Positions 4,414 through 39,839 of a stretch of DNA of 64,000 nt are shown piece after piece. The position numbers were made by a program, and so were the translations under genes. The notes below the pieces were generated by a model. It saw only the letters and a program-made list of their open reading frames with translations, searched no databases and was not told where the DNA came from. This stretch comes from Theionarchaea archaeon (lineage in GTDB: Archaea > Methanobacteriota_B > Thermococci > Methanofastidiosales > SZ-28-30), in the NCBI GenBank assembly GCA_018992685.1, contig JACVGT010000002.1, positions 1 to 64,000 on the forward strand. Direction: 5' to 3'. Each line of letters begins with the position of its first letter. Within the stretch, counting starts at the first letter, position 1.

Positions 4414-5388
4414 TCAGCCCAGTTCACCGTTGAATAGATTGGTGCGCTTCACATGGACAACTGCAAGACCCACCATCACGACAATCCACCCTGAAAAGAG
4501 CAAATGCTGCTGAGGGCTGAAATCACCCATGAAATACTCCAAGAACATGATGACAATCCAAAGGTGAGCGAAGTCCATGACGTGAGAGTGCTTTTCAGGA
4601 TGGGCAAAGTAATAGAGTGAGACATTGGCGCAGATCAAAGCTGCTGTGATATACAAATTGAGGAGACCACAAAACACGATGCTAAATCCAAAAAAAATCA
4701 CCAAGAACAGAACTTTCAGTGTATTTGATGTATTCTGACCCAGTTTCTGGACAGTATGGGACGCACTGCTGATCCTGTCTACATGAAAATCACGTACTTG
4801 ATTATCAATTTGTCCTATTAGACTTATCAGCAAAAGAATGACCACACTTCCCCATACAAATGATTCAGCTGTGACCTTCACTCCAATGAAGTAGAGATAG
4901 CTTGCAGCAATGATCAGACCTTTCCACAAGAAGACAAAGATCCAGTCCCAGTATTTACGGTCTCTCAGCCTCACTGGTGGCGCAGAATAGAGCAGAGCAA
5001 GCACGTTGAGCAGTAGGATGGGTATGAAGACAGCCCGGGTTATAGAAGCTGCCAAGACGAGGCTGGCTCCAGGGCTGATATAGAGGACTGCGGTTCCAAT
5101 CTTTCGGCGTTCTTCTGTGCAGAATACGTTTCTCGTCCCTTTGTTGGGGTCTCTGGAATCATGAGGGGCATCAAAAAAATCGTTGACGACGAACATGAAG
5201 ACATTACCGCAGAATACACTGACCGCGAGAATGATTACCTGCAATGAGAACCCCTGCAGATAATTCCAGAAGAATCCCACCAAGATTAGACCAGATGAAA
5301 CCACAGCATACTCAAATCGCAGATCTTCTAGGAGCAGCAACACAGACTGGCTTCGGCCGAGAACCTGGTAGCTGGAAGTGGACATCAC
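4414..5388 (-). CDS. UbiA-family prenyltransferase
   Basis: NDFFDAPHDSRDP (NDxxDxxxD) motif and multiple TM segments. Confidence 0.8.
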   Translation of the reverse strand: MMSTSSYQVLGRSQSVLLLLEDLRFEYAVVSSGLILVGFFWNYLQGFSLQVIILAVSVFCGNVFMFVVNDFFDAPHDSRDPNKGTRNVFCTEERRKIGTAVLYISPGASLVLAASITRAVFIPILLLNVLALLYSAPPVRLRDRKYWDWIFVFLWKGLIIAASYLYFIGVKVTAESFVWGSVVILLLISLIGQIDNQVRDFHVDRISSASHTVQKLGQNTSNTLKVLFLVIFFGFSIVFCGLLNLYITAALICANVSLYYFAHPEKHSHVMDFAHLWIVIMFLEYFMGDFSPQQHLLFSGWIVVMVGLAVVHVKRTNLFNGELG

Positions 5389-5664
5389 ACATCACCATCA
5401 GAGGGGGGATGGGTGATCCTGCTTGACAACGCATTCTTCTCACTGGAACTACTGGTACACACTGGGGGCATAGGCTGATGTTCAGACGTCGCTCCCCCGG
5501 ATGTCGAATCTCCCATAGAGTACATCTGCTTTGGATTCATTATCACAATCTGTAGAACAGATATTTAAACATTGCGTCATTAGAATTCAGAGGAGGTTGG
5601 AAAGGTGTCAGGAAAGAGCCTTTGACTCAACTTTATAAGTTCTCGTGACAGAGAGACTCAGGAG

Positions 5665-7053
5665 TTGACCCGCATGTTGGATATTCTAGAACGTTGCATT
5701 GATGTCTGTTCTCATCCTGAGCACCTATTGCAGATACGAGGCCAGAGGAGACAGGTGACAGCGTGCACTGTCAAGAATAGTGTCGTCCAGCAGTTCTCCA
5801 CCCTTTCTGTTCAAGGAGTGGGAGTGAGAGCCCGTGTTGATAATGGATGTTGGGGGTTCAGTTCAGTCAATACATGTGAAGCAAGCCAGGTGGAGCAGGC
5901 AGCCAGGCAGGCTGTGGCTTTGGGGAAAGCGGCTTCACGAGTTTCTCAGGATCGTGTTGAAATTCAGACACAGAAAGCCGTCACTGATACGGTTTCTTCA
6001 CCAGTCAAGGTTTCCCCTTCAGGATTAGCTGAAGAAATTGTGGACATTCCCATGAGGGCGTGCACGAGTGCGCTGGGTGCAGGACCGGAGATTAAAGATT
6101 GTAAAGCAACCTATATTAGTATGGAAGATCAAAAGTATTTTGTCAGTTCAGAAGGGTCACAGATCACTGAACATATTACAAGAATCATGCTGTTCGTCAA
6201 TGTGGTGGCAAGGAGGAATGATGTCGTCTGCCCGTGTTCTGACAATGTGGGGTTTACAGGGGGGTGGGAAGTTTTCGATGAAACCTCACCTGAAGAGCTG
6301 GGGCAGACGGTTGCAGAAAAGGCAGTGAATCTACTGGCCGCCAAGACCCCGCCCTCGGGTACGGTTCGTGTGATTATTGGCCCCAAGTTATGCGCTACCC
6401 TCCTTCACGAGGCCATTGGTCATCCCTTGGAGGCTGATCTTGCCATGGCGGGAGGAGGATTTGGCACTCAACTCAATAGACCAGTGTGTTCTGAATTGGT
6501 GACTATTTACGATGATGGACATGTACCAGGAGGGCTGGGCTATTTTTTCTATGACGATGAGGGGACACCCTGCACCCGTACCACCTTGATTGACTGCGGA
6601 GTTTTGAAATCATTCATGCATGACCGCGAGAGTGCCTCAGCTGCAGGGGTTCTACCCACCGGGAATGCTCACGCCTGGGACTACAGCGTGGAGCCCTTGA
6701 TCAGGCAAACCAACATCGGTATTGAACCAGGGGAATATACGGTCGAGGAGATGATAGAAGACGTCTCTGACGGATTGTTTCTGGAAGGAACCTTTGGAGG
6801 GCAAGCAGACTCCAATGCTGATTTCACTTTTGGCTTTCAGAGCGCCCGGGCAATTGAAAAAGGGGAGCTCACAGAGGAGTTCAGGGGTGCAAATGTGGCT
6901 GGAAATGCTATTGACGTGTTCAAGACCATTGACGCCGTGAGCAACACGTCAGTGTTGAGGCCCGGTGCATGCGGGAAGCATCAGTTCGCAGTTCAGGGAC
7001 GGGTGGTTCCAGCCATCAGGTGCCACATCATGGTGGGAGGACATGGAGGCTAG
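5665..7053 (+). CDS. tldD: TldD-type metalloprotease
   Basis: HEAIGHPLEAD zinc motif; pairs with downstream PmbA/TldE homolog. Confidence 0.9.
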   Translation: MTRMLDILERCIDVCSHPEHLLQIRGQRRQVTACTVKNSVVQQFSTLSVQGVGVRARVDNGCWGFSSVNTCEASQVEQAARQAVALGKAASRVSQDRVEIQTQKAVTDTVSSPVKVSPSGLAEEIVDIPMRACTSALGAGPEIKDCKATYISMEDQKYFVSSEGSQITEHITRIMLFVNVVARRNDVVCPCSDNVGFTGGWEVFDETSPEELGQTVAEKAVNLLAAKTPPSGTVRVIIGPKLCATLLHEAIGHPLEADLAMAGGGFGTQLNRPVCSELVTIYDDGHVPGGLGYFFYDDEGTPCTRTTLIDCGVLKSFMHDRESASAAGVLPTGNAHAWDYSVEPLIRQTNIGIEPGEYTVEEMIEDVSDGLFLEGTFGGQADSNADFTFGFQSARAIEKGELTEEFRGANVAGNAIDVFKTIDAVSNTSVLRPGACGKHQFAVQGRVVPAIRCHIMVGGHGG

Positions 7054-11036: not shown

Positions 11037-14000
11037 CTACGCGGGAGAAACAGACTCCTGTACTACCACAGGATGGGACACAGTTCTCTCGAAAATTTCG
11101 GGGGCATCCACGGTGCTTCCATCCACATGGATGACCTCCTGGTTCATCAACAGTATATACCCATTTTTTGCATGAGAAAACCCAAGTCTCTCCAGAATGG
11201 AACTGATTTCTGATTCCTCCACAGGAACTTCATTGAAGGAAGCAAATCGCAGTGCTCTGAACTTCTTCTGGACTGCGCTCTTCCTGCCATACTCTATCAC
11301 TTTGTACAGGAGGGATATCATCTCCTCTCTTGTGACAGTCTGGAGGAGGCTCATTTCTATATTAAAATATCTCTCAGGGTAGTTCTTGCTGGTTAAGATG
11401 CTTACAGGACGCCCCCTCTTAATGATGATGTGATTGGCCACGGCTACGGCATGTTTTACAGGGTTATCTCCATTTTCTATGGGGATGAGCTTTCCATATA
11501 GGTTGGCAGGGTCTTTCATGCATAAGATGACGTACTGATCATCAAAGGTTATGTTGCGAAGCATGTCCACAGCTTCAGGTGTGGCATACTGCATACCATC
11601 CACCTCCTCAATGAATCGCCCCTCTCTCACTTCACCTCGCAACATGAGGACCTTGACAGCCTGGGAGAAATCTTGAGGTGAGACTGCTTCCCTATTCACT
11701 TTGAGGAGATCTCTTGTGACAATGCCATACCGGGTGAAGATCTGCCTCACCTTGTCCAGAGAAGATGACGGTACTGGCCTCTTAACCAGTGACCACCTGC
11801 CTTTATCCACCCGGATTCTTTTCTTCCTGATATTCCTGGATATGATGTCATCTGACACATCCTCCGGAGTGTGGGTCAAATCCCAGGCAGCAGACATCCC
11901 AGAGATGATCACTGATTCTCGAACTGATTCGTAGGAGTCATTCTCCACAATTCCCAGCTGGAACAGGCGCAGGAGGGCACGCATCACCCGAGTCCGTTCC
12001 ATTTGAGCGCCAGTGACAATCCCCTCCAAAGAGAGAGAAGGCCATATACCTAAGATCTCAATGATCTCGTCACACTCTTTTTTCAAGTCTTCATAATACT
12101 CTTCCTGTATCACGCCGTTCACCACGAAGTTCGCATCTTCTGTGCAGTATAACTGAATAATACCTCTGTTTGGCAAATTGTATCGTTCGTGAGGAGGTAG
12201 TTCATTGAATCGTCCGAAAGATATCCTCTTTTCATTGACGAGTTCGTTGAGGTACTTTTTCCTGTAGTCTCGTACCCTGCTGCTCAAGAGGTATCGTTCC
12301 CAGCACGTGATGTGTTCTTCCCAGGTTTCGAGCTTCTTTACTGCCTGGATTACTCCTTCCTTGCCCTGAAGGTTGGTCTGAGGATGGACGTTCTGCCACT
12401 TGAGCATGAAATCCACATACCGATCTGCAGAAAGTGGTTTTACCTGCTCTCTCAGTGAATAGAGACTCCTTCGGTGAAGCTCTTCCAGGGTACGTCTCCA
12501 GCACCACTGAGGAGTGTCTTTGCTGGCCATGAAGGACCCATGAGTTATAACTCCTTCCTCTTCCAGAGTGTCCACCAGCGTAGTTGTACCTTCAGAGGAC
12601 AGACCGTACCGTTCCATGAGCTCGTACTTGGCCACAGGACCACGTCGGCTGAAAAATGTCTTCATGATGGCCAGGCAGGACTGGAGCCTGTCTTTATCAG
12701 TTCTCATGTCCTCTGGAATCCATTCTTCAGGCTTTTCCTCAATTCTCCCCTTCTTCAGGACACCCACTGTGTGAAATGAATGGCGTGTGGCCAATCCAGG
12801 TCCTCCCTTGGCATGTCTTGCAAAAGCAGCTCTATACAGACTGTACAGTTCTGTGGGAATCCAGCGTTCTTCAGGTACCCCAAACGGTATCCACACTTTG
12901 ATGACTCGTTTCTGGTCACATAGTGTCTCCAGGAGCTGGAAACAATCCCCCTTCACTCTCCTTTCAATTTCCTCTGTAGTCAAGTCTCCCAGGGTTTGCA
13001 GGATTCTCGCAAGTTCGTCTGTGGATCTGGCCTTCTGATGTTCTAGGAGGAGCTGGAGTTCCTGTTCCACCCGGATAACTTCTTTTTCCACGAGTAAGCT
13101 TTCAATCAGGTCCTCATCAATCAGCTGTTTCAAGACCTGACGATGCAGATGAATTAATCGCAGCTTTCGTTCCTCGTTGGAGATCTGACCAAAATCACCA
13201 AACTGACCTACCAAGAGCAACTGGTGGATGAAAGGGGAAGGAATTCGTGATTCACAGAACGTAATTCTCAGTTCCTTTCTTGCTATTCCATTGAGAATTT
13301 CCATCAAATGGGGAAGATCAAAGGCTTCTTCTACACTTTCTCGAAGAGCTTCCTTCACTATGGGAAATTCTCTATCTGATCTAACTTCTTCCAGCAGATC
13401 GGCTGCCCTCAAGCTCTGGAGCCAGACGGGAACTCTCTTTCCCGAATATTCCCGTAAGATGAGGAACGATCTCACTGCACAGTGACGAAATCGCGAAGAA
13501 AATACTGGAGAATCCATAATAATCTTGTCAATGTTCTCCTCCATGAATTCGGGAGTGACCAACTGAACTATATCTTCCGGGCTGGCTGTTACCCCCTCAG
13601 GCAGAGTGAGCAGGATTCCATCATCCACTGTAGCCATCCCAGCCCTGACCTCATATAGGGTTTCTGCAGCCTTAACCAGCGCATATCCCCAGATATCATT
13701 GAGCCGCACGCCAAAGGGAGAATGCACCGCAATTTGCTGGTGTCCCAGTTCATTGCTAAAGGATTCCACCACAATATTCACGTCAGAGGGAATAACTCCG
13801 AGCATCATTGACTGCTCTCTGTAGTATTTGGCCACAGCTGCAGCGCCATCTGCATCCAGCATGTACTCAGACATCAACCAGCCTTCAACATCATTTTCGG
13901 TGAGGATTTCCTTCTCCATTTTTCGCCTGAATTCTCCCACCAGCACACCCAAATCATACGTTCGAGATGGCCGCACTCCTCCCCAGTAGGGGATGGTTGG

Positions 14001-15686
14001 TGGCACTCCTGCCACGTTCTGAACCAGAACCTTTTTCTTGTCCAGTCCCACCATCTGCCAGGCCTGAGATCCCAGAATAAACACATCTCCGGGGCGGATA
14101 CGTTCCACAAATCCTTCGTCCAGAGTTCCAATCTTGGATTTTCCCTGATAAACATCATAGTTTGAGACATCAGGGATAGCTCCTCCACAGCGGAATGCAA
14201 TGTTCCGGGACCCTCGACTACCCGTGAGTCTCCTGTTTACTCTGTCATAGAAGATTTTGGGGTAGATATTCCTGGAAATCTGGGATGAGAGCATGGTAAG
14301 AGTCTTCTCAAAGTCCTCTCTGGACAGGGTGTGATAGCAGTATGACTGGGTTATCAGTGCATAGAGTTCCTCAGGGTTCCAGTCATCTGCTGCAACGCAG
14401 GCCACAATCTGCTGGGCGAGAATGTCCAATGCATTGAAGGGAATGACAGTTGTGTCAATGATGCCGTCAGATATTCCTCTTACCAGAACAGCAGACTCCA
14501 CGAGGTCATCCGGATCTGTGGCCACAATTCTCCCCTTGCTGGTTTCTTTGAGCAGGTGCCCTGCTCTTCCAATGCGCTGCATACCGCTGGACAAAGATTT
14601 TGGGCTCTCCAAACTGCATACAAGGTCAATTGACCCAATATCTATGCCCAATTCCAGAGAAGAGGTGGCAATCACGGCGTCCAGCTCATTGTGCTTGAGC
14701 TGGTTCTCGATAGTGTGACGAATGGTTCGGGACATGGATCCGTGATGACTTCCTATCCTGAGTGCTTCTTCTTCTGCCAATTCTCGTAGCTGAAGTGTCA
14801 TGTGTTCTGTTCTATACCGGGAGTTGGCGAAAATAAGCGTTGTTTCATGAGCTTTGATCATGCTCAGCAGTTTGAGGTAGGCTGCATTCCATACCACGTC
14901 GTTCTTGGCATCCAACAGGTTATCCACAGGCGAAATGACCTGCAGATCCAGGTTCTTTCTGGCCCCTGCGTTGACAATGGCACATTTCCTGGGAATGCCT
15001 TGTTCCATTCCCACGAGGAATTTCGCAATTTCTTCCACGGGGGATTGTGTGGCAGACAGTCCGATCCGCACAGGATTCCTGTTGAGTAGATGGACCAACC
15101 GTTCCAACGACACAGACAACTGAACTCCCCTCTTGGACCCAGCCAGTGCGTGGATTTCGTCTACAATAACGTATCTGATGTTTTTCAGATGTTTTCTGAA
15201 TTTGGCAGTGGTCAGTGTAATATACAATGTCTCAGGGGTAGTTATGAGAATGTGGGGTGGTTTTCTTGCCATTTTTGCCCGTTCTGCACTGGTCGTATCC
15301 CCTGTTCTGACCCGTGATCTAATGGGCTGGCAGTGGACATTCTTCTTCTTGAGAATACCATGAATGCCACGAAGAGGCTGATACAGATTCTTGTGAATGT
15401 CATTACTCAAAGCACGTAGGGGGGACACATACAGGACATAGATGGTGTCCTCCAGTTGCTGAGAAACGGATAACTTGAAGAGTTCATTGATGCAGAACAA
15501 AAAGGCTGCCAAGGTCTTCCCCGACCCAGTGGGAGAGAAGATCAAAGTATTCTCACCGCTGGCAATCAAAGGCCAGGCCTCTCGCTGGGGAAGGGTTAAC
15601 CTGTCAAAGGTAGATACCATCCACTCTTCCACATAGTCCTCAAAGAGTTTCATGGTCTCCTGATCCTTTTTTGTGAACTCGCTCAT
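11037..15686 (-). CDS. lhr: Lhr-type superfamily 2 helicase, long form
   Basis: FSPTGSGKTLAAFLF (motif I), IVDEIHALAG (motif II), GLSATQSP (motif III), QRIGRAGH (motif VI); start at MSEFTKKDQ. Confidence 0.92.
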   Translation of the reverse strand: MSEFTKKDQETMKLFEDYVEEWMVSTFDRLTLPQREAWPLIASGENTLIFSPTGSGKTLAAFLFCINELFKLSVSQQLEDTIYVLYVSPLRALSNDIHKNLYQPLRGIHGILKKKNVHCQPIRSRVRTGDTTSAERAKMARKPPHILITTPETLYITLTTAKFRKHLKNIRYVIVDEIHALAGSKRGVQLSVSLERLVHLLNRNPVRIGLSATQSPVEEIAKFLVGMEQGIPRKCAIVNAGARKNLDLQVISPVDNLLDAKNDVVWNAAYLKLLSMIKAHETTLIFANSRYRTEHMTLQLRELAEEEALRIGSHHGSMSRTIRHTIENQLKHNELDAVIATSSLELGIDIGSIDLVCSLESPKSLSSGMQRIGRAGHLLKETSKGRIVATDPDDLVESAVLVRGISDGIIDTTVIPFNALDILAQQIVACVAADDWNPEELYALITQSYCYHTLSREDFEKTLTMLSSQISRNIYPKIFYDRVNRRLTGSRGSRNIAFRCGGAIPDVSNYDVYQGKSKIGTLDEGFVERIRPGDVFILGSQAWQMVGLDKKKVLVQNVAGVPPTIPYWGGVRPSRTYDLGVLVGEFRRKMEKEILTENDVEGWLMSEYMLDADGAAAVAKYYREQSMMLGVIPSDVNIVVESFSNELGHQQIAVHSPFGVRLNDIWGYALVKAAETLYEVRAGMATVDDGILLTLPEGVTASPEDIVQLVTPEFMEENIDKIIMDSPVFSSRFRHCAVRSFLILREYSGKRVPVWLQSLRAADLLEEVRSDREFPIVKEALRESVEEAFDLPHLMEILNGIARKELRITFCESRIPSPFIHQLLLVGQFGDFGQISNEERKLRLIHLHRQVLKQLIDEDLIESLLVEKEVIRVEQELQLLLEHQKARSTDELARILQTLGDLTTEEIERRVKGDCFQLLETLCDQKRVIKVWIPFGVPEERWIPTELYSLYRAAFARHAKGGPGLATRHSFHTVGVLKKGRIEEKPEEWIPEDMRTDKDRLQSCLAIMKTFFSRRGPVAKYELMERYGLSSEGTTTLVDTLEEEGVITHGSFMASKDTPQWCWRRTLEELHRRSLYSLREQVKPLSADRYVDFMLKWQNVHPQTNLQGKEGVIQAVKKLETWEEHITCWERYLLSSRVRDYRKKYLNELVNEKRISFGRFNELPPHERYNLPNRGIIQLYCTEDANFVVNGVIQEEYYEDLKKECDEIIEILGIWPSLSLEGIVTGAQMERTRVMRALLRLFQLGIVENDSYESVRESVIISGMSAAWDLTHTPEDVSDDIISRNIRKKRIRVDKGRWSLVKRPVPSSSLDKVRQIFTRYGIVTRDLLKVNREAVSPQDFSQAVKVLMLRGEVREGRFIEEVDGMQYATPEAVDMLRNITFDDQYVILCMKDPANLYGKLIPIENGDNPVKHAVAVANHIIIKRGRPVSILTSKNYPERYFNIEMSLLQTVTREEMISLLYKVIEYGRKSAVQKKFRALRFASFNEVPVEESEISSILERLGFSHAKNGYILLMNQEVIHVDGSTVDAPEIFERTVSHPVVVQESVSPA

Positions 15687-15908
15687 AACTATTACCCTTT
15701 TCCAGGGGGTTTTTATATCTTTCTGTTCTTGTTCTTCCAAGAGAGATGAGTCCAGAGATTACAGGGCAAGATGTTTGGAATCAGGCTATCCACCACGTTT
15801 CAGGCAGAGGCTCTGAATTCGAGAGGTGGAAGGAGAAGTACGTTCAAGAGGACACTTTTCGGGAAAATCAAAGAATGACTAAATTCGGCAATAATGAGTC
15901 TCTGAAGG

Positions 15909-15938: not shown

Positions 15939-17495
15939 TTATCTCCGCTTGAGTGCTACACCCAGCAATACGAGAGCAGATACAAAGGCAGTTCCAAGGC
16001 AGGTACCGCCACACTCACAACCACAATCTCCATCAGCTGGTGGAGACACACTGGGGTTGCTGATAATCTGCTGTACCGCAGCGTATGCATCTACACGACC
16101 CCATCCCCACAGGCAGTCTTTGTTGACATTGCCCTTGTCGATGGCAGTTGCACCCATGCAGTTCTTGACCTGCAATGGGGTGGCTGTACCACGGGCGTCC
16201 AGCATCAAGGCAGCAACACCTGCAATGTGCGGTGTGGCCATTGATGTACCAGACATTGAAACATCACTGCATGAGGTTCCGGAATCGGCAGCGTAGATAT
16301 ATACACCGGGAGCTGTGATATCGGGCTTTATTCTGTCGTCAGTAGTAGGACCTCTGGAAGAGAAGCTGGCAAGAGCATCTGACTTGTCAGAAGCACCAAC
16401 AGTGATGACATCTGTTGCATCACCAGGTGTGCTAATGGTGCAGCATGCTGAACCATCATTTCCAGCAGCACATACGACGACAACACCCTGACCTACAGCC
16501 CAGTTGCACTCCTTAGCCAATGCGCTAGTACCGTCGCCACCGCTTCCACCTAAAGACAGTGACTCCACATCTGCTCCCTGGGCAACTCCGAAGTCAATAC
16601 CCTGGATGATAGCACTGTCAGTGCATTGTCCGCCAGAAGTACATACTTTGGCCATCATGAGGTCTGCACCAGGTGCAACACCCTCAGGACTGTCTTCGCC
16701 AGCGGCAATGGATGAGCAGTGGGTACCGTGTCCATGGTCATCGTAAGGTGTGGATTGACTGTTGACGTAGTCTGCCCAGGCAATGATCTTCCCAGAGGGG
16801 AAGTCACAGTGGTTGGGGTCAATACCAGTGTCGATGATACATATTTTAATTCCAGTACCATCGTATCCAGCATACCAGCAGTCATCTGCGTTGATCAGCG
16901 GGATACTGTCAGATAAGGTGACGTAGGCGACACCGTCAGCTTCTACGAACTCAACCTCAGCGACCTCAGACAGAGCTTTGATGTTGGACACACGAATGTC
17001 CACAACAGCACCCATGCCACTGAGGAAGTTGTAGTAGACACTGCCGAATTTTTCCAGTTTGCTGGCAGCGTTGGGATTCTTGAACCATACTAGAGTTCTT
17101 ACAATGTCGTTTCCGTTCATGCCATTGATCTGGTCCTTGATTGACCACTTCATTTTGGCCACGTTGTTCGGTACGACGGCGACATATTCGTTAGAACCTA
17201 CTTCAGTTAAGTAGGCCATTGGTATCATGAAATCGGTATCACTGATCTGGACAATGGGAAGGTATTCTACATTGATTTCCTTCGTCACTCTGTTCAGAAC
17301 ACCAGAGCCAACCGATATGTACAGGAAGTCAGAATCTTCCCCTGTAATATCCATGTTGAGCTTCAGCAGGTCTCTTCCCTCGTATCCAAAAGTCTGGACG
17401 TGAATTACTCCCTTGGTGGGCTTAGCACTCACGGCAACTAGTGAGAAAACAAGCATACTTATTGTGGCAAGCACGAAGATCTTTCGACTCTTCAT
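15939..17495 (-). CDS. Secreted S8 subtilisin-like protease with C-terminal CLGT-TM-KRR tail
   Basis: Triad motifs IIDTGIDPNHC, DDHGHGTHCSS, MSGTSMATPHIAG; signal peptide; SD GGAGGTGAAGAAATG. Confidence 0.92.
   Translation of the reverse strand: MKSRKIFVLATISMLVFSLVAVSAKPTKGVIHVQTFGYEGRDLLKLNMDITGEDSDFLYISVGSGVLNRVTKEINVEYLPIVQISDTDFMIPMAYLTEVGSNEYVAVVPNNVAKMKWSIKDQINGMNGNDIVRTLVWFKNPNAASKLEKFGSVYYNFLSGMGAVVDIRVSNIKALSEVAEVEFVEADGVAYVTLSDSIPLINADDCWYAGYDGTGIKICIIDTGIDPNHCDFPSGKIIAWADYVNSQSTPYDDHGHGTHCSSIAAGEDSPEGVAPGADLMMAKVCTSGGQCTDSAIIQGIDFGVAQGADVESLSLGGSGGDGTSALAKECNWAVGQGVVVVCAAGNDGSACCTISTPGDATDVITVGASDKSDALASFSSRGPTTDDRIKPDITAPGVYIYAADSGTSCSDVSMSGTSMATPHIAGVAALMLDARGTATPLQVKNCMGATAIDKGNVNKDCLWGWGRVDAYAAVQQIISNPSVSPPADGDCGCECGGTCLGTAFVSALVLLGVALKRR
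15942..16560 (-). repeat. Near-identical 3' segment shared with the second subtilase gene (22023-22640)
   Basis: Side-by-side reading shows only scattered differences, unlike the 5' parts of the two genes. Confidence 0.85.
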
Positions 17496-17563
17496 TTCTT
17501 CACCTCCTTTTTCCTTGTTATGCAGCTGCACAAGGCAGGCACACATTTCTGTTTGCCCTCATG

Positions 17564-30538: not shown

Positions 30539-31621
30539 ATGGACTTAACAACATCTGAAAAGAAACTCCTCACACTCATTGGAAAGAATCCCTCACATAC
30601 CAGGTCGGAATTGCTGCATGAGCTCAATTACAAACGGGCCACTACACTGAGCAGTAAAATGAGTGAATTGAAAGAGTCTGGATATATCAAGGGGCCATAC
30701 TACCACGTCAATCTGAATGCTGTATGTGAGACTCCCGTATTCAGCATGTTGGTTGAAATTCGATTCAGCCCCCACAACTACGATGTGGTCTTCAAGAGTA
30801 TTCTATGCATTGACTGCTGGGAGTGGATTTTTCCCGCCATACAGGGAGAGACACTCTTCGCATTTTTCAGATCCTGCGACTGTTCTCATCTCCACAGGTT
30901 GCTGAACTTTCTGAGGAATAGGGGGTTCATTGAGTACCGCTCATATTCTTCTCAGAACAGGTGGTTTGTGCAGAACCCAGACTTCTCAGGAAACATTTTT
31001 CCACAGACGTCTGATCTTTTTCGTCCTGTAGACATTGAGCTCTGCTATCCACATAAGGCTCATGACACCACGTGGCAATTTATCGATCTAAAAGTGATGC
31101 AATACCTCCAGGTGAGAACCAGCAGCATAACAGAAATACAGAAACTGGAAATGAACCTGCATAAGAGGTTCTGGAGGCGCCATCAAATCAAATACAGCAT
31201 TAGGAAGATTACTGAAGCGGGAATTGCGGAAAGAAAACATTACAACATTTCTCCCTATCCTCGAGGTGAGGAGTATGCATTTCTGTTGATGATTGAAGGT
31301 GACAGCATGGATGTTCTGCAGTTCATTTCGAATTTTGGCGAAGGATGCAGACTGTATAAGGCCTTCACGATAAGTGGTGAGACAGGGTTTCTATGGTGCT
31401 GGTGCAACCCCCAGGTCGGTCCAACGTTGATGAAGAGGCTTGATGGTCTTCGTCCGCGAATCGAAGCCCGCTGCCTCCCATTGAAATCCAGGGGATACGA
31501 TGATACCCTGAAGAAATCGTTTAACGAAGAGTATTTTGATCTTGAAAAGCAGAAGTGGACGTTTCGCTTCAAGAAATGCGAAGATGAAATAAAAAAGATA
31601 ATGGAAAGAAAGAACGAATAG
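30539..31621 (+). CDS. Winged-helix transcriptional regulator, duplicated Lrp-like architecture
   Basis: N-terminal LTTSEKKLLTLIGKNPSHTRSELLHEL..ATTLSSKMSELKESGYIKG, second HTH-like unit near residues 180-230. Confidence 0.55.
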   Translation: MDLTTSEKKLLTLIGKNPSHTRSELLHELNYKRATTLSSKMSELKESGYIKGPYYHVNLNAVCETPVFSMLVEIRFSPHNYDVVFKSILCIDCWEWIFPAIQGETLFAFFRSCDCSHLHRLLNFLRNRGFIEYRSYSSQNRWFVQNPDFSGNIFPQTSDLFRPVDIELCYPHKAHDTTWQFIDLKVMQYLQVRTSSITEIQKLEMNLHKRFWRRHQIKYSIRKITEAGIAERKHYNISPYPRGEEYAFLLMIEGDSMDVLQFISNFGEGCRLYKAFTISGETGFLWCWCNPQVGPTLMKRLDGLRPRIEARCLPLKSRGYDDTLKKSFNEEYFDLEKQKWTFRFKKCEDEIKKIMERKNE

Positions 31622-31934: not shown

Positions 31935-33296
31935 TCATCCCTCTGGAGGGGTGATGAGATCCATTTCGAAACTGACAAGTGCATTGTATGCCCTTCTGAC
32001 ATCTTCTGAGGTCCCTGTTTGCAGCGCCTCCCTGTATTTTTCTTCAAGGAATTCTCTCTTTTCTTTCGCACTGATCTCTCTGACGTTTCGTTTCACTTTT
32101 CTGATCTCTACAGAGTCACCCAGCTGTTCATAGAGATGAAGACTTCTCTCCCAGTGTTCCCTGGCTCTGGCCAAGTCTTCTTTCCGGGCATAGCACAGTC
32201 CTTCATTATGAAGCGTGCCTGCAGTCCTGAATGCACAATTTCCTGCCAGGGCCAATGCTTTCTCAAACAATGCCAGAGCATCATCAATGTCATCATTCAT
32301 GTAGAGGCAGGAACCCAGATTGTTCAACACATCTGACAGCAGTGGGATATCCTGCACATCTTGAGCAATTCCTTGGCACCTTCTGTAGTAGTGCTCTGCC
32401 ACTAGGAAGCTCGATCTCTTGTATGACACGTTTCCCAGTCCCTTCAATGCGTATGCCCTCCCTCTGTCGTCTCCTGTCTCTCCACATATCCCCTCCATGC
32501 GGAGAAATGTTGCCTCTGCCTTGGCCAGGTCACCCTTCAATTCATAGACGTTTCCTAAAGTATAAAGTGCCCAGATACTCTGAGAGTTGTCCAACCCATC
32601 AGGGAGGACAGCATCCAAGGCATGAAAAAGTGCTGTGTCATCCTCCTCTCGTTCTCGCGTTACTTTCTCAAGTATCTTCTTGAGAGCAGTATCCCATTCC
32701 TCAGACGTTCGCAGCCGGGAAGCTGCATCCGCCTTTGTCATGTAAAAGATTTCTTCCCCTTTTTTCGAAAGTCTGTACTGACTCTGATCAATGTGGCTCT
32801 TTTTCTCATATGCTATGTACCCTTTCATTCTCAGGTGTTTCAAGTTCCGGTAGATGCTTGCTCTTGATACACCCTTTATACCACCAAGATATGTGTTGAA
32901 ATAAGCTTCAATTTCTCCTGTTGTAACGAACTGCCTTTTTCCGACCACATGAATGATGTGAACCATGATCTCCCAAGGTTTCACCTCCAATTCTTCCATT
33001 ACTTTGATGATTTTCTTTCCAATCTCTGTCTTGAGCTTCTCTGGGGCTGGCTGGGATTTCCTCACGTCTCCGAAGAGGTTTAGCCCTCTTGACGTGATTG
33101 TGTAGAAAGGAGGAATATCCTGCTTTTCGACTTTCAGGAGGTACTCCTGGGCAAGAAGCTTGAGCAGAATAGACTGGGCGCTGCCACCCCCAAGTTTTCT
33201 GGCTTGATCTTCTGTGATTTTTCTCCCGTGGCGACGTGCGAAGTCCAGCACCTCAACCATGAGCTCAACCTCCTGTTTGTCACTGACAAGAGTCAT
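31935..33296 (-). CDS. Winged-helix regulator with C-terminal TPR repeats
   Basis: GVSRASIYRNLKHLRMKGYIAYEKKS wHTH; TPRs such as ALYTLGNVYELKGDLAKAEATFLRM. Confidence 0.7.
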   Translation of the reverse strand: MTLVSDKQEVELMVEVLDFARRHGRKITEDQARKLGGGSAQSILLKLLAQEYLLKVEKQDIPPFYTITSRGLNLFGDVRKSQPAPEKLKTEIGKKIIKVMEELEVKPWEIMVHIIHVVGKRQFVTTGEIEAYFNTYLGGIKGVSRASIYRNLKHLRMKGYIAYEKKSHIDQSQYRLSKKGEEIFYMTKADAASRLRTSEEWDTALKKILEKVTREREEDDTALFHALDAVLPDGLDNSQSIWALYTLGNVYELKGDLAKAEATFLRMEGICGETGDDRGRAYALKGLGNVSYKRSSFLVAEHYYRRCQGIAQDVQDIPLLSDVLNNLGSCLYMNDDIDDALALFEKALALAGNCAFRTAGTLHNEGLCYARKEDLARAREHWERSLHLYEQLGDSVEIRKVKRNVREISAKEKREFLEEKYREALQTGTSEDVRRAYNALVSFEMDLITPPEG

Positions 33297-33515: not shown

Positions 33516-33932
33516 TTATTGAAAATCCCTTTTATCCATGAGAAAGTCGACAATCTCCATGGAGAACTCAAGGGGAAATTCATTCTCTGACAAGAGCTTG
33601 AGCATCTTTTCTTCGAGGCCCTTGTTGCTTTCAGAATCCACCATGCGAGTCATCCCCGTGAAAAGGACATAAAAGGCTCGAACCACTTTGGGAGCCATGA
33701 CGCCCCTGTTCCCCTGGTGTGTTGATGGTTTTCCTGCATCCCTGACTGAGGGTCCCTCGAAATCCCACACTGCATTCCTGGCTGCATGGGCGACATTCTT
33801 CCGTTCCCCGATGGCTTCCATAAACGTCTCCCATATAATATGGAGGTAGGGGACTTCCTCGGGGTATTCTCGTTCTATGAATTCTTCTGCATACTGTCTG
33901 ACCTTGTCCACGATATCCTCTTTTGTGTTCAT
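33516..33932 (-). CDS. Small protein of unknown function divergent from CHAT gene
   Basis: 139-codon ORF with coherent acidic/helical composition, divergent from 34121. Confidence 0.55.
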   Translation of the reverse strand: MNTKEDIVDKVRQYAEEFIEREYPEEVPYLHIIWETFMEAIGERKNVAHAARNAVWDFEGPSVRDAGKPSTHQGNRGVMAPKVVRAFYVLFTGMTRMVDSESNKGLEEKMLKLLSENEFPLEFSMEIVDFLMDKRDFQ

Positions 33933-34120
33933 GAATAATCCTCATCCCTCTCTTCTAACGTTCATTGATGCCTTATAAGACTTTATGGTGCTTCTTCATC
34001 TTTCATTTTTTCGTGCCACATCAGGAATGGTGCTGCACGATTCGTGCCAAACCTATAAGAATGTGGGCATGCATGGTAATGGTAGACACTATCGGGAATT
34101 GCACAGAAACGGAGGTTACG

Positions 34121-36979
34121 ATGATCACCCATCCAAAGATCCTCTACTTGTTCTCTGGACCTCTGGTAGCCTTGGACGGCAGCCCTCTTGACGTGCTGGA
34201 TTTGAAAACGGAACGTGATATCATTGTGAGAGAGGTTTCTGCCTGTGAGATGACATGTTCACTCCGAATCGGGTATGCAACCATAGAAGAACTTGCCAAA
34301 GGCATTGAAGATGGATTCAACATTCTGCATATAAGTACACATGGCAGAGCGGAATGTCTCCTATTTGAAGATGGGAAGGGCGGAAGTCAGCCTGTCACAG
34401 GCGAGTACCTCAAGAGAGTGATAAGCACAAAAGGGTTACTTGAGTTGATCATCATCAGTGCCTGCCATTCAGAAGAGATTGGTGCAATGCTGGCAGACGC
34501 AGGTGTTCCACATGTTGTGGCTATCAGGCGCGATTCCTCTGTAGTAGATCAGTCAGCCATTCTCTTCACAACCCACTTCCTTCGCAATCTCTTTCGGGGA
34601 AGTTCTGTACAGAAAGCCTTTGAAATGGCTTCCCTGCTCGTAGAAGGGAACCCTGAATTGATGAAGATGAAACAACGTCTTGAGGTCATTGCCTACAGAA
34701 AAAAAGGGACATTCATTCCAGAAGAAAAGAAATTCATTCTACTTCCCACAGATGCTGCCCACCACGATCCTCTCCTCTCTCAAGAAGTCCCCTCAGGTAC
34801 CGTGACAATTGAAGAGCCCCCGGTTTCACCCTCGAATCTTCCCACAAAGCCGCAGTTCTTTGCAGGTCGACTTGAGGAGATGCATACCATCATCAACGAA
34901 CTCATTCAGGGTAGGTTTGTCACCCTGACAGGAGTGGGAGGCATTGGAAAAACAACGGTAGCTCTTGAGGTGGCACGATGGTTTTCTTCCAGGAGGGTTT
35001 TTCCTCATGGAATCTACTACATAGACCTCCGGCAGACTGATACTGCAGATGGAGCCCTTGATCTCTTGTGTTCAGCTCTCAAAGTACAGGTTTCTCGGCT
35101 CCAGAACGTTATCACCTACCTGGCGGACCGTCGCTGCTTGCTGCTTTTTGATAATGCAGAGGATGTTCTCTGGCACAATGAGAAAGACCTGCAGCATCTC
35201 TTCAACACAGTCCTGAAGACTACTCCCCACTCCACGATGTTGATAACAAGTCAGAGACCGGTTGGAGGCAACCTGCATGAACCCGAACATGTGTGCAGAA
35301 TATTTCCACTGGAACAGACATATGCTTGGATGCTTTTCTGTGCCACCACAAAGAGGAGGATTTTGCCCGATGAATGTGAATCGCCCCTCTTTTCTGCCCT
35401 CCTTGCCCGATTGGGGGGACACCCCTTATCAATTGTATTAACAGCACGTCAACTTGCTCCCGGGGTGACTCTGGAGGACATATACGAAAGGATTGAGACA
35501 TACAAGGCCGCAGCAATCAAAATAAAGCATCGTACAGATAGAATCCTGGACCACGGAGAAAGCCTCATGACAGCTCTGGCTTCTGCCTACCACATCTTGT
35601 CAGATCGAGCACAGATACTCTTTCAAGTGCTTTCCCTTCTTCCAGCGGGTGCCAGACGTGATATACTGGAAGAAATCTGGGGCAACCCAGTCTGGGAGCA
35701 CGTACAAGAACTCAATGATGCTTCCCTGGCAGAAGTGAGAAGCAGACGGGTGACTCTGCTGCCTCCAGTGCAACTATTTGCATTCACTGTTCTTGCTGAG
35801 GAAGTCAAAGAGTACTATGGTCCCAGAATCGTGGAAGCTATGGGGACATATGCCAAGACGCTGTACAAGGGCCACACCACAGAGGATTCGAGAGAATACC
35901 GGATTCTCTTTACTGTAGAAGAGCCAACCTTCCGAGCTATTCTAGACCTTCCCGATGAATCATTTCAAGCAGGGAAGAATGGTTCATTCCTTGGGTTCTT
36001 CGGAGCTGAACTCATTTACTTATATATTTTCCATAATCGGTGGAAAGAAGCAGAAACCATTGGTTCTAGGATACTGTCTCATCTTGGACGATGTGAGGAT
36101 TTTCAGGGTGAAGCACATGTTCTTGTAGCCCTGGGGGTCCTTGCTTTTCGAACAGGAAACCTTGAAGAAGCTAGGACAAGGTATGAAAAAGCTCTCAAAA
36201 CATACCAGAATATCCACGCGAGAATGGGAGTCGCAAATGCGTTTTGGGCACTGGGCGATCTTTTCTTTAGAACAGGAGATTTCGAAGAGGCTCAAAGGCG
36301 ATTTGAAGAAGCTCTGGATATATACCAGGAGATTGATGTGAATCTTGGTAAAGCAAATGCCTTCTTACGTTTAGGGATGCTTACTTTTCTAACAGGCAAT
36401 TCTGAAGAAGCTCAAGAACGGCTTGGAAAGGCCCTGATGATCTATCGATATATTCACGTCGAAATCGGTGAAGCAAACACTCTCCGCATACTGGGAGATG
36501 TCGCCATGTGGACAGGTGATGTGGACGCAGCCCACATCCAGTACCAGAAAGCCCTGAGAATCTATGTGCACAACAGCGTGAAGGATGGTGAAGCGCGTGC
36601 CCTGGTTCACCTAGCCCGGTGGGCCGCTCTTACAGGCAGAAGTGAGCACATGCAGACGTATCTTGATGATGCATTCACAATATATAGGGAGATAGAAGAC
36701 CTTGATGGACTGGCCCACGCGCACTTGGTAAAAGCGCTTCTCTTTCTCAAGACTCACAATACGATCAAAGCAAGGCGCCAACTCGATTTTTGTTCATCTA
36801 TCCAGGAAAAAACGTGCCAACATTCTGAAACAGCCCAATGGCTCATTACGTATGCAGACCACTTCATGTACTGTAAAGAAGAAGCAGTATTGTGTTTGGA
36901 ATATGCAGAGGAATTTGCCATGATGGCACGAAATCTCTACCTTCTTGGCAGAATAAGAGAAAAACAGGCATTGCTGTGA
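34121..36979 (+). CDS. CHAT (caspase-like) - NB-ARC/STAND ATPase - TPR protein
   Basis: CHAT His/Cys context HISTHGRAE and ISACHSEEIG; P-loop GVGGIGKTTVALE, Walker B LLLFDNAED; C-terminal ~40-aa TPR repeats; SD GGAGG before ATG 34121. Confidence 0.85.
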   Translation: MITHPKILYLFSGPLVALDGSPLDVLDLKTERDIIVREVSACEMTCSLRIGYATIEELAKGIEDGFNILHISTHGRAECLLFEDGKGGSQPVTGEYLKRVISTKGLLELIIISACHSEEIGAMLADAGVPHVVAIRRDSSVVDQSAILFTTHFLRNLFRGSSVQKAFEMASLLVEGNPELMKMKQRLEVIAYRKKGTFIPEEKKFILLPTDAAHHDPLLSQEVPSGTVTIEEPPVSPSNLPTKPQFFAGRLEEMHTIINELIQGRFVTLTGVGGIGKTTVALEVARWFSSRRVFPHGIYYIDLRQTDTADGALDLLCSALKVQVSRLQNVITYLADRRCLLLFDNAEDVLWHNEKDLQHLFNTVLKTTPHSTMLITSQRPVGGNLHEPEHVCRIFPLEQTYAWMLFCATTKRRILPDECESPLFSALLARLGGHPLSIVLTARQLAPGVTLEDIYERIETYKAAAIKIKHRTDRILDHGESLMTALASAYHILSDRAQILFQVLSLLPAGARRDILEEIWGNPVWEHVQELNDASLAEVRSRRVTLLPPVQLFAFTVLAEEVKEYYGPRIVEAMGTYAKTLYKGHTTEDSREYRILFTVEEPTFRAILDLPDESFQAGKNGSFLGFFGAELIYLYIFHNRWKEAETIGSRILSHLGRCEDFQGEAHVLVALGVLAFRTGNLEEARTRYEKALKTYQNIHARMGVANAFWALGDLFFRTGDFEEAQRRFEEALDIYQEIDVNLGKANAFLRLGMLTFLTGNSEEAQERLGKALMIYRYIHVEIGEANTLRILGDVAMWTGDVDAAHIQYQKALRIYVHNSVKDGEARALVHLARWAALTGRSEHMQTYLDDAFTIYREIEDLDGLAHAHLVKALLFLKTHNTIKARRQLDFCSSIQEKTCQHSETAQWLITYADHFMYCKEEAVLCLEYAEEFAMMARNLYLLGRIREKQALL

Positions 36980-36982
36980 TAT

Positions 36983-37894
36983 TCAACTCCCTGGATCGTC
37001 CCTGTCTGAGGGAGGCTGGGGGAACGGCTCTGAAAGATTCTCTATGAACTTTCTAACATCCTCAACCAGCTCTGGTGCACTATCAATCTTGTCATTGATG
37101 CTGAAGAGTCCCACTGCTTCTTCGAAACAGTGGAGAATCAACGTAACCTGGGTGGGATCATCATCTTTCGCTTGTTTCCAGAGAATATTGGCCTCTGTCC
37201 AGAGCCTGTTTGCCCTTCTTCTCAGTCTGTTCGCACGATTCCGGAATTGTTTCTTGAATTCTACTGGAATGCTTCTTTCTTCTCTTGTATCCCTTGTACC
37301 CTCCTGCAGACACTTGGTTTCATGGGCCAGGAGGATATCATACACATGACCAACTATGCCATCTGGATGGGTTTCACCTTCAGCCTTCCAGTTGTTCTTC
37401 GTTACTGCTGTTATCTCTAATCCACACGCTTCCTTAACCAGATCGGCAGAATTCTGTATCATGGGCCTGGAAGCAGACGGGTTATAGCTTGAAAGGTTGG
37501 CCAGTCTTTCAGCAGGTGCTGTGTATCCCTGATACCCGTTGCACAGATACTCCCAGTGTGTTCCCAGCAAATTGAAGTGAGTGGGGATTATATCAGGCTG
37601 CCCCCATCCCTCACGCGCGTAGGAGTCGGTGAGGAATCTTGAAAGAACTTCTGTCATCTCAATGACAATTTCCAGTAGTTCTTTCTCTTTCCCTACTAGT
37701 GTAGAAGTAAGAACCACCATTTCGTCTCTCTTTTCGTCAATGGCACCCATATTGAAAAGCACGGCGTCACCTGTCTTTAATGCTGCAGCAGCCGCTCCTT
37801 TGAGTGCTTCGTCAAAACTCCTCTTGATCTGCTGTTCTATACTGATGATCCTATTTATTTCCAGTTCAATGCTGTTTTCTTTTTGCCTTTCCAT
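36983..37894 (-). CDS. Protein of unknown function
   Basis: 304-codon ORF convergent with CHAT gene, only 3 nt separating the stops; helical C-terminus RNRANRLRRRANRLWTEANILW. Confidence 0.6.
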   Translation of the reverse strand: MERQKENSIELEINRIISIEQQIKRSFDEALKGAAAAALKTGDAVLFNMGAIDEKRDEMVVLTSTLVGKEKELLEIVIEMTEVLSRFLTDSYAREGWGQPDIIPTHFNLLGTHWEYLCNGYQGYTAPAERLANLSSYNPSASRPMIQNSADLVKEACGLEITAVTKNNWKAEGETHPDGIVGHVYDILLAHETKCLQEGTRDTREERSIPVEFKKQFRNRANRLRRRANRLWTEANILWKQAKDDDPTQVTLILHCFEEAVGLFSINDKIDSAPELVEDVRKFIENLSEPFPQPPSDRDDPGS

Positions 37895-38079: not shown

Positions 38080-39126
38080 CTAATCAGTCACCAAGATGTG
38101 TTCCAGTTCCTGCCAGCACCGCGGATCTTCTCCAAGGAAGTCGCCCGTTGCAGAAGCAGCTCCTCTACAGCCTCCGCAGGCGAATTTGTACTTACAGCCA
38201 CCACATTTCCCTTCAAGTGCTGATCTGGAATGGCGAAAATTATCTAGAAGTTCATTCTCAAACCAGATTCTTTCCACGTTCTCTCTTGTGGCATCAGCCA
38301 CAGAGATGGGGAAATAAGGACAGAGCTGCACAATCCCCTGAGGGTTGATGTAGAGCAGCGTAAAAGCAATCGAGCAACCAGTAACTGCTATCCCCTGCAT
38401 GAGATCTGAATCAATGTCTATCTCTTTCTGTCTGGTCTCGTTCACGAACATCTCAGGGAAGGGGTCACTGAACCCAACCCTCATATTCAATTCTTCACCC
38501 GTTTCCCATATTCTCTCGCACAGCCTCCGGTACTGATCCGCATCCACCATCCTATTTGTAGCTCGTCCCACTGGAACGAGATACCGGAAATTGAATATCC
38601 TGACGCCAATGCTATCTACAAATCGCATGAGAGCTTCAGGTTCATCTTCTCCCTGATGAAAATATGTCATCCGGACAGCCACTGTGGCATCACTTTCCAC
38701 GAGAAGGTTTAATGCCTGGACAGTCTTTTCAAAAGATCCTCTGCCCCGTACAGAATCGTGTATTCCTGGAGTTGCCCCTTCCATGCTGACATTGAACCCC
38801 CGGACTGTTTCTAAGAGCCAGTCAATTCTCTCAGGAGTTATCAAGGTTGCATTGGTGAGAAGCTCAACGTGATTTCCAGGCAGGTTGTCTCTAATGTAGG
38901 AGAGAATCTCCTGGAGGTCAGCTCTCATGAGAGGTTCCCCTCCTGCCATCGCAAGGGCTGCATGTGGTGAAAGAGAGTGTATCTGATTCAGCAGTGATAC
39001 AATTTGCTGATATGTCAAGTCTGCCGCAGTCTTGTCCAGGACACTTGCCCGACAGTGTTTGCATGCCAGGTTACACTGGCTTGTAATGTCCATCTGGACA
39101 ATTCTTGGTGGGTATTGCCATTTCAT
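38080..39126 (-). CDS. Radical SAM/SPASM protein, candidate peptide maturase
   Basis: CNLACKHC (CxxxCxxC), AGGEPLMR, SPASM-like cysteines CGGCKYKFACGGCRG; SD GAGGTGAT before ATG. Confidence 0.9.
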   Translation of the reverse strand: MKWQYPPRIVQMDITSQCNLACKHCRASVLDKTAADLTYQQIVSLLNQIHSLSPHAALAMAGGEPLMRADLQEILSYIRDNLPGNHVELLTNATLITPERIDWLLETVRGFNVSMEGATPGIHDSVRGRGSFEKTVQALNLLVESDATVAVRMTYFHQGEDEPEALMRFVDSIGVRIFNFRYLVPVGRATNRMVDADQYRRLCERIWETGEELNMRVGFSDPFPEMFVNETRQKEIDIDSDLMQGIAVTGCSIAFTLLYINPQGIVQLCPYFPISVADATRENVERIWFENELLDNFRHSRSALEGKCGGCKYKFACGGCRGAASATGDFLGEDPRCWQELEHILVTD

Positions 39127-39183: not shown

Positions 39184-39432
39184 TTACTTCGGCAAAATGC
39201 AGATATCGCATCCGCCACATGGCCCCTGCAAGTCGGGATAGAATGGCCGTAGAGGATGAATCGTCTTCAGTTTCTGCAACCTGTCTTCAATATCCATCTT
39301 CTTTGGCTCTCCTATGACAAGGTCGCATCCTCCACATGGACCTTGAGCTGCGTACACCGGGATCTTGTTTTGTTTCGCATGTTCCAAGGCATCTATCAAC
39401 TCTGATACAGAGTAGTGTTTGTTTGTATCCAC
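39184..39432 (-). CDS. Candidate RiPP precursor with two QGPCGGCD motifs
   Basis: Peptide VDTNKHYSVSELIDALEHAKQNKIPVYAAQGPCGGCDLVIG...DLQGPCGGCDICILPK; SD GGAAGTGAT 4 nt before GTG 39432; directly upstream of radical SAM gene. Confidence 0.7.
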   Translation of the reverse strand: MDTNKHYSVSELIDALEHAKQNKIPVYAAQGPCGGCDLVIGEPKKMDIEDRLQKLKTIHPLRPFYPDLQGPCGGCDICILPK

Positions 39433-39839
39433 GTTAATCACTTCCTTTCTTGCTGTGAGGTTGCTCTCTTTCCACAATGCAACCTCATACAGACACGTAT
39501 CTGGGTTCCTCTTCTTTCATGAATGTTATTATGGAGGATTAGACAACTCTTGGACAAAAAGGTTAGATTCATCAGGCCAGTTTTGACATTTTTCAGCAAA
39601 AATCATACATCTGAGGTATTGAAAATTCAAATAACCTGTTTCTAGAGACATAATGAACTAGATAATTCAATTGCCTGGATTGAGCATTGAGAACGAATGT
39701 CTAGGAATGTTAATTGTGAGGCCCTCGCTCGACTGTCATTTGAAAACATCAAGGCTTTCTGGGGACAACATCGAGGGATCATGGTATCATTAGGCGAGTT
39801 CCGGTGCCAGAAGCAGGTCTTCAATTGCAGGAAACACAG

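Follow-up and report, generated by a model that had tools for sequence, protein, structure and literature searches.

If a caspase-like protease, a STAND ATPase and an array of TPRs are joined on one archaeal polypeptide, what does the protease cut, and with what consequence for the cell? CHAT-STAND-TPR proteins are known mainly from bacteria, and few substrates have been proposed for the archaeal ones. The protein considered here is encoded in a window of 64,000 nucleotides from a Theionarchaea archaeon, and the first-pass annotation took it for a candidate STAND immune or death effector. We find that its gene belongs to a cassette of five genes that is duplicated in the genus and includes regulators, and this points more to a gene switch under protease control than to a death effector acting alone. 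The CHAT-STAND-TPR architecture itself is already known; the duplicated cassette is what is new here.

The CHAT gene and its product

The CHAT-NB-ARC-TPR gene (34121..36979, + strand) encodes 952 aa between an ATG at 34121 and a TGA stop at 36977-36979, and the three domains that the first-pass annotation had placed on a single polypeptide in exactly this frame are all recovered by Pfam above the curated cut-offs. The start is supported by a Shine-Dalgarno sequence, GGAGGT (34111-34116), and by a shared BRE/TATA-like element, CAAACCTATAAGAATGTG (34048-34065, + strand), which is almost fully kept in the orthologue (73% identity) and the paralogue (55%) and which is probably the promoter of the gene. 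AAACCTATAANAATGTG has the same letters in the window, the orthologue and the paralogue. An alternative frame started by TTG (33965-36979) comes without a ribosome-binding site, and the ATG at 34121 is therefore favoured.

The N-terminal part (about residues 1-215; 34121..34765, + strand) is a predicted CHAT cysteine protease domain. Pfam CHAT matches residues 53-172 (E 2.8e-9; 37.3 bits, curated cut-off 24), and this score, together with the catalytic His and Cys, places the protein among the CHAT peptidases (PF12770). His74 (codon 34340-34342) lies within HISTHG (residues 70-75) and Cys115 (codon 34463-34465) within ISACHSEEIG (residues 112-121). Their loss in orthologues had been named as grounds for giving up the initial proposal, which described both as intact; we find both kept in the 73% orthologue and the 55% paralogue, and in the alignment with CHAT proteins encoded on plasmids of Halobacillus, Leisingera and Agrobacterium they fall on a GHG motif and on the Cys motif, which reads NAC or NTC there. 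A profile of the three Theionarchaea CHAT domains moreover covers these motifs in its match to the solved CHAT protein 8tl0 (E 8.5e-8). The Pfam match spans profile positions 130-264 of 289, and we do not read this partial coverage as decay, because bacterial CHAT matches reach N-terminally to about residue 6 and the motifs match those of 8tl0. Purifying selection acts on the protein, the dN/dS against the orthologue being 0.17 over the whole gene and 0.13 within CHAT, the most constrained domain; the neighbouring FeoB, used as control, gives 0.09.

The NB-ARC STAND ATPase follows (about residues 241-465; 34841..35515, + strand; Pfam NB-ARC at residues 254-465, E 7.8e-11, 42.1 bits, curated cut-off 23.5), with Walker A GVGGIGKTT at residues 271-279, Walker B LLLFDNAED at residues 340-348 and GGHPLS at residues 432-437. 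These motifs are invariant or near-invariant across window protein, orthologue and paralogue, and the domain gives the best NB-ARC match among 61 relatives. The C-terminal TPR array (residues 624-943; 35990..36949, + strand) consists of about eight units, each exactly 40 aa long (period z = 13.6 relative to shuffled sequence); it matches Pfam TPR_12 above the curated cut-off (E 5.5e-35), and TPR_MalT matches the protein as well. The NB-ARC match, Walker A, Walker B, the GGHPL motif and C-terminal superstructure repeats together assign the protein to the STAND/NB-ARC class, so that the ATPase and the repeats of about 40 aa described earlier are borne out. The effector-switch-sensor logic then ascribed to the protein holds as anatomy; that the TPRs are the sensor is presumed by analogy with the STAND class. 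Between the orthologues the TPR part is 74% and the NB-ARC part 70% identical, so that in this comparison the TPRs do not evolve faster than the ATPase. The closest named relative is in the Theionarchaea MAG SZ_28-30, which bears out the archaeal assignment.

A duplicated five-gene cassette

The gene does not stand alone, as the idea of a lone effector would have it, but sits with two winged-helix regulators in a conserved five-gene cassette of 7.4 kb, which the first-pass annotation had passed over. The first of these, wHTH-360 (360 aa; 30539..31621, + strand), has a weak Pfam HTH_24 match and is 86% identical to its orthologue; the second, wHTH-TPR (453 aa; 31935..33296, - strand), is by Pfam a PadR-like winged-helix protein with TPRs. 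Both may bind DNA, as the weak Pfam hits would suggest. A 138-aa protein (33516..33932, - strand) is encoded divergently from the CHAT gene, 188 bp from its start, and in the same place at the orthologous and paralogous loci; a 303-aa protein (36983..37894, - strand), likewise present at the counterparts of the CHAT locus, is encoded convergently, 3 bp from the CHAT stop. The 138-aa protein has no match in Pfam, NCBIfam, PHROGs or PADLOC, and proteins of its type share an invariant D-x2-GP-x-VR motif. For the 303-aa protein no family match was found in Pfam, NCBIfam and further family searches; its predicted structure is all-helical at a pLDDT of 46, and its family is confined to the host genus among the 41 genomes searched. 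Shared ancestry of the two small proteins was considered, and their comparison speaks against it.

The second genome of the genus (G001; the window genome is G000, and both are MAGs) holds the same five genes at the orthologous locus (L035), between the same outer flanks (FeoB and radical SAM), and once more at a paralogous locus (L034), in identical order and orientation with different outer flanks. Identity between window and paralogue is 55% for wHTH-360, 58% for wHTH-TPR and 55% for the CHAT protein, about 40% for the 138-aa protein and 27-28% for the 303-aa protein. An assembly gap falls within the TPR array of the paralogous CHAT gene, with the C-terminus recovered past the gap. The window locus is chromosomal and has been inherited vertically, with synteny between the two species. 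The two MAGs behind this evidence belong to a single genus, and the linkage in both copies traces back to one duplication that has been kept, not to many events. As a side observation, the paralogous 303-type protein (L034 7676-9043; L060 5388-5909) has an apparent extra hydrophobic N-terminal segment ending in LWYxCKGGE, which is absent from the window copy; an internal start after the segment is possible in the paralogue.

Both genomes have a third locus (L058 2295-7520; L059 2641-7806), where two wHTH-360 genes, wHTH-TPR and a 138-type protein of 123 aa are found, the order of the 138-type and wHTH-TPR genes being reversed. Neither gene nor remnant of CHAT or 303 is present there, apart from a single chance-level match of 28 aa to 303 (E 0.036). 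The window genome has three copies of wHTH-TPR, five relatives of which show 80/58/57/50/50% identity, and the four closest copies of wHTH-360 in the genome are all at the three cassette loci. The 138 family occurs only in the two genomes of the genus, among 115 genomes of the phylum searched, and always adjoins wHTH-TPR (at all three loci in G001, and at two intact loci and one relic in G000). This exclusive pairing with wHTH-TPR appears to tie the cassette to transcription control.

The relic is the G000 counterpart of the paralogous cassette (L060, G000:C23), which has two deletions relative to G001. One has taken away the entire CHAT gene together with the latter half of the 303 gene, the other most of the 138 gene, of which 28 codons are left. 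Half of a 303-type gene and the 138 fragment thus remain at 5388-6045, while wHTH-TPR and wHTH-360 are still open. From the gene fragments we infer that the direction was loss in G000. The joint loss of CHAT, 138 and 303 with the regulators intact suggests that the three share a function, and, taken with the third locus, that the regulators and the 138-type protein form a core to which CHAT and 303 are an added part.

The 138-type gene is not a dedicated CHAT substrate, as it occurs without CHAT too. We considered the D-x2-GP-x-VR motif as a CHAT-specific cleavage site, an idea weakened by its being invariant at the CHAT-less locus as well. It is only the longer loop surrounding the motif that is CHAT-associated: in a comparison of just two CHAT-linked groups with one CHAT-less group, the CHAT-linked proteins have about 15 extra residues around the central D-x2-GP-x-VR segment, possibly an exposed loop.

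CHAT proteins elsewhere and defence context

Among the 101 genomes of the class searched, CHAT domains were found only in both genomes of the genus and in one other, and the control search recovered CHAT outside the phylum in Methanosarcina acetivorans. Of the five CHAT matches in the window genome, three share their chain with a STAND-type ATPase and TPRs. Two of these are further proteins of 1028 and 1371 aa (L036 1872-4958 and L063 3316-7431) with very regular TPR arrays, which resemble the window protein in domain composition but, unlike it, have no 138, 303 or wHTH-TPR homologue adjoining. The wHTH gene beside the L036 CHAT-STAND gene was rejected as a member of the wHTH-360 family, the similarity being limited to a short wHTH stretch. 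The other two CHAT proteins of the genome are without STAND, and one bears a beta-propeller. In bacteria, a winged-helix gene is immediately followed by CHAT on the Agrobacterium plasmid pTiCFBP5877 (L083) and on a Leisingera plasmid (L082), so the pairing of wHTH and CHAT recurs there; pTiCFBP5877 carries three CHAT genes alongside TIR and caspase genes. The viral contigs searched yielded no relative of the CHAT protein or the 138-aa protein, and the phage search gave two unannotated faecal contigs whose match is confined to the ATPase part.

For an immune or death effector the domain logic is in place, and it is the surroundings that do not fit: no defence island, mobile element, PADLOC effector or gasdermin partner was found. 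PADLOC gave just generic TPR hits and weak fragments on the CHAT protein, and no described anti-phage STAND family (Avs, bNACHT or others). In the part of the window scanned, up to about 46 kb, there is no defence-island or mobile-element context, the flanks being syntenic and chromosomal, and the nearest defence-type gene is a DpdJ-like helicase some 20 kb away; generic subtilase hits occur besides. This helicase (11037-15740, - strand; 1567 aa) matches PADLOC DpdJ over residues 28-608 (E 2.1e-191), and a subtilase-type gene adjoins it at 15939-17546.

Discussion

We favor, tentatively and at a little short of even chances, the reading in which the protein acts as a caspase-like protease switch gated by ATP and works with its cassette neighbours, cutting a partner and thereby altering the linked winged-helix regulators. 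By analogy with the STAND class, the TPR array would bind a ligand, upon which the NB-ARC domain would swap its nucleotide and oligomerise, and this would activate CHAT. Once active, the protease would cleave one of the cassette's own products, with the 138-aa and 303-aa proteins as the likeliest targets, and through this cut the winged-helix regulators would change in activity, so that transcription would respond to stress or to viruses. We put all of these steps forward as predictions, from sensing and oligomerisation to the protease activity, its substrate and the output. The intact domains and motifs, and the five genes kept both at the orthologous locus and at a paralogous locus of about 55% identity, count for such a relay, and because of the five-gene linkage a cassette partner is the most economical substrate.

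The closest parallel may be Craspase (type III-E CRISPR; Csx29, Csx30, Csx31 and CASP-sigma), in which a sigma factor is restrained by Csx30, and Csx30 is cleaved by the CHAT protease encoded next to it, Csx29 (PMC10028731). Like the window protein, Csx29 combines CHAT with TPRs, and its gene is likewise linked to unknown proteins and transcription control; the catalytic spacing is also similar, with H615/C658 in Csx29 (43) and H74/C115 here (41). In contrast to Craspase, the window protein has its own NB-ARC switch and an N-terminal CHAT domain, the cassette partners have no family match, and archaeal wHTH proteins take the place of the sigma factor. No Cas7-11 match was found among the cassette genes and their neighbours, nor any other Cas gene among the neighbours. 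That the cassette is a self-contained archaeal counterpart of Craspase without CRISPR, in which the CHAT-STAND receptor would sense infection or stress, cut its cassette partner and free the winged-helix regulators, we regard as rather doubtful in this complete form. In fungi, a gasdermin is activated by the TPR-CHAT protease whose gene lies beside its own (PMC12881547), and there too a CHAT receptor with TPRs is encoded next to its substrate; in the window no gasdermin gene adjoins CHAT, and neither the 138-aa nor the 303-aa protein matches a gasdermin family in Pfam or NCBIfam. The bacterial CHAT/caspase-STAND conflict proteins and the DGR-diversified CHAT proteins (PMC8195603; PMC10907252) follow the same logic of effector, STAND and superstructure repeats, whereas the system described here is archaeal, stably inherited and a lineage-specific five-gene cassette.

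It is this likeness in domain logic to antiviral STANDs and CHAT effectors that speaks for a stand-alone immune or death effector, in which the TPRs would detect a viral or cellular trigger, CHAT would attack essential host proteins until the cell stops, and the neighbours would only control expression. The tightly placed divergent and convergent neighbours could well be such controllers, and the loss of the second copy in G000 is what one would expect of a costly, dispensable gene. Against this stand the missing PADLOC effector match, the scanned neighbourhood without defence or mobile elements, the syntenic orthologues, a sensor that is not fast-evolving between them, the absence of full-length relatives from the viral contigs and phages searched, and the linkage to 138 and 303, kept through an old duplication, and we consider this explanation rather unlikely. 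Somewhat less probable, in our opinion, is a regulator of the MalT/AfsR type without an immune role, in which NB-ARC and TPRs would sense a metabolite or a protein and CHAT would process a regulator in normal physiology. AfsR is the best natural NB-ARC-TPR match among solved structures, over the TPR part, and the AfsR-type SARP/LuxR/wHTH-NB-ARC-TPR regulators (PDB 8k60, 8jke) share the order of NB-ARC followed by 40-aa TPRs. Transcription regulators of the wHTH, SARP/BTAD or LuxR kind make up most of the annotated plasmid relatives of the NB-ARC domain, so that a signalling role outside immunity stays in play; the TPR_MalT match, the two wHTH regulators and the vertical, syntenic inheritance are in line with it. 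Yet CHAT replaces the DNA-binding domain at the N-terminus of the window protein, which leaves it with none, CHAT is better known from conflict systems, and G000 has lost its second copy. An inactive CHAT serving as a binding scaffold, to which the partial profile match could point, we hold to be very improbable, since orthologue and paralogue both retain His74 and Cys115 along with the residues around them, CHAT is under the strongest constraint of all the domains, and short bacterial CHAT domains match its N-terminal part too.

Under the protease switch that we favor, the cassette offers a short list of candidate substrates, namely two small proteins and two regulators that have stayed beside the protease since an old duplication, and the question of what CHAT cuts becomes directly testable, the natural deletion at L060 and the sister locus without CHAT serving as built-in controls. 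Should the protease indeed cut a partner, receptor, protease, substrate and output of an archaeal caspase-like relay would be united in 7.4 kb, and the system would test whether prokaryotic caspase-like signalling ends in death or in gene regulation.

We point out one further gene pair close to the cassette. A 97-aa protein with two QGPCGGCD repeats (39184-39477, - strand) is encoded directly upstream of a radical SAM/SPASM enzyme (38080-39126, - strand), and in the second genome both genes are conserved and again lie side by side (86%). The pair looks like a putative RiPP precursor and its maturase.
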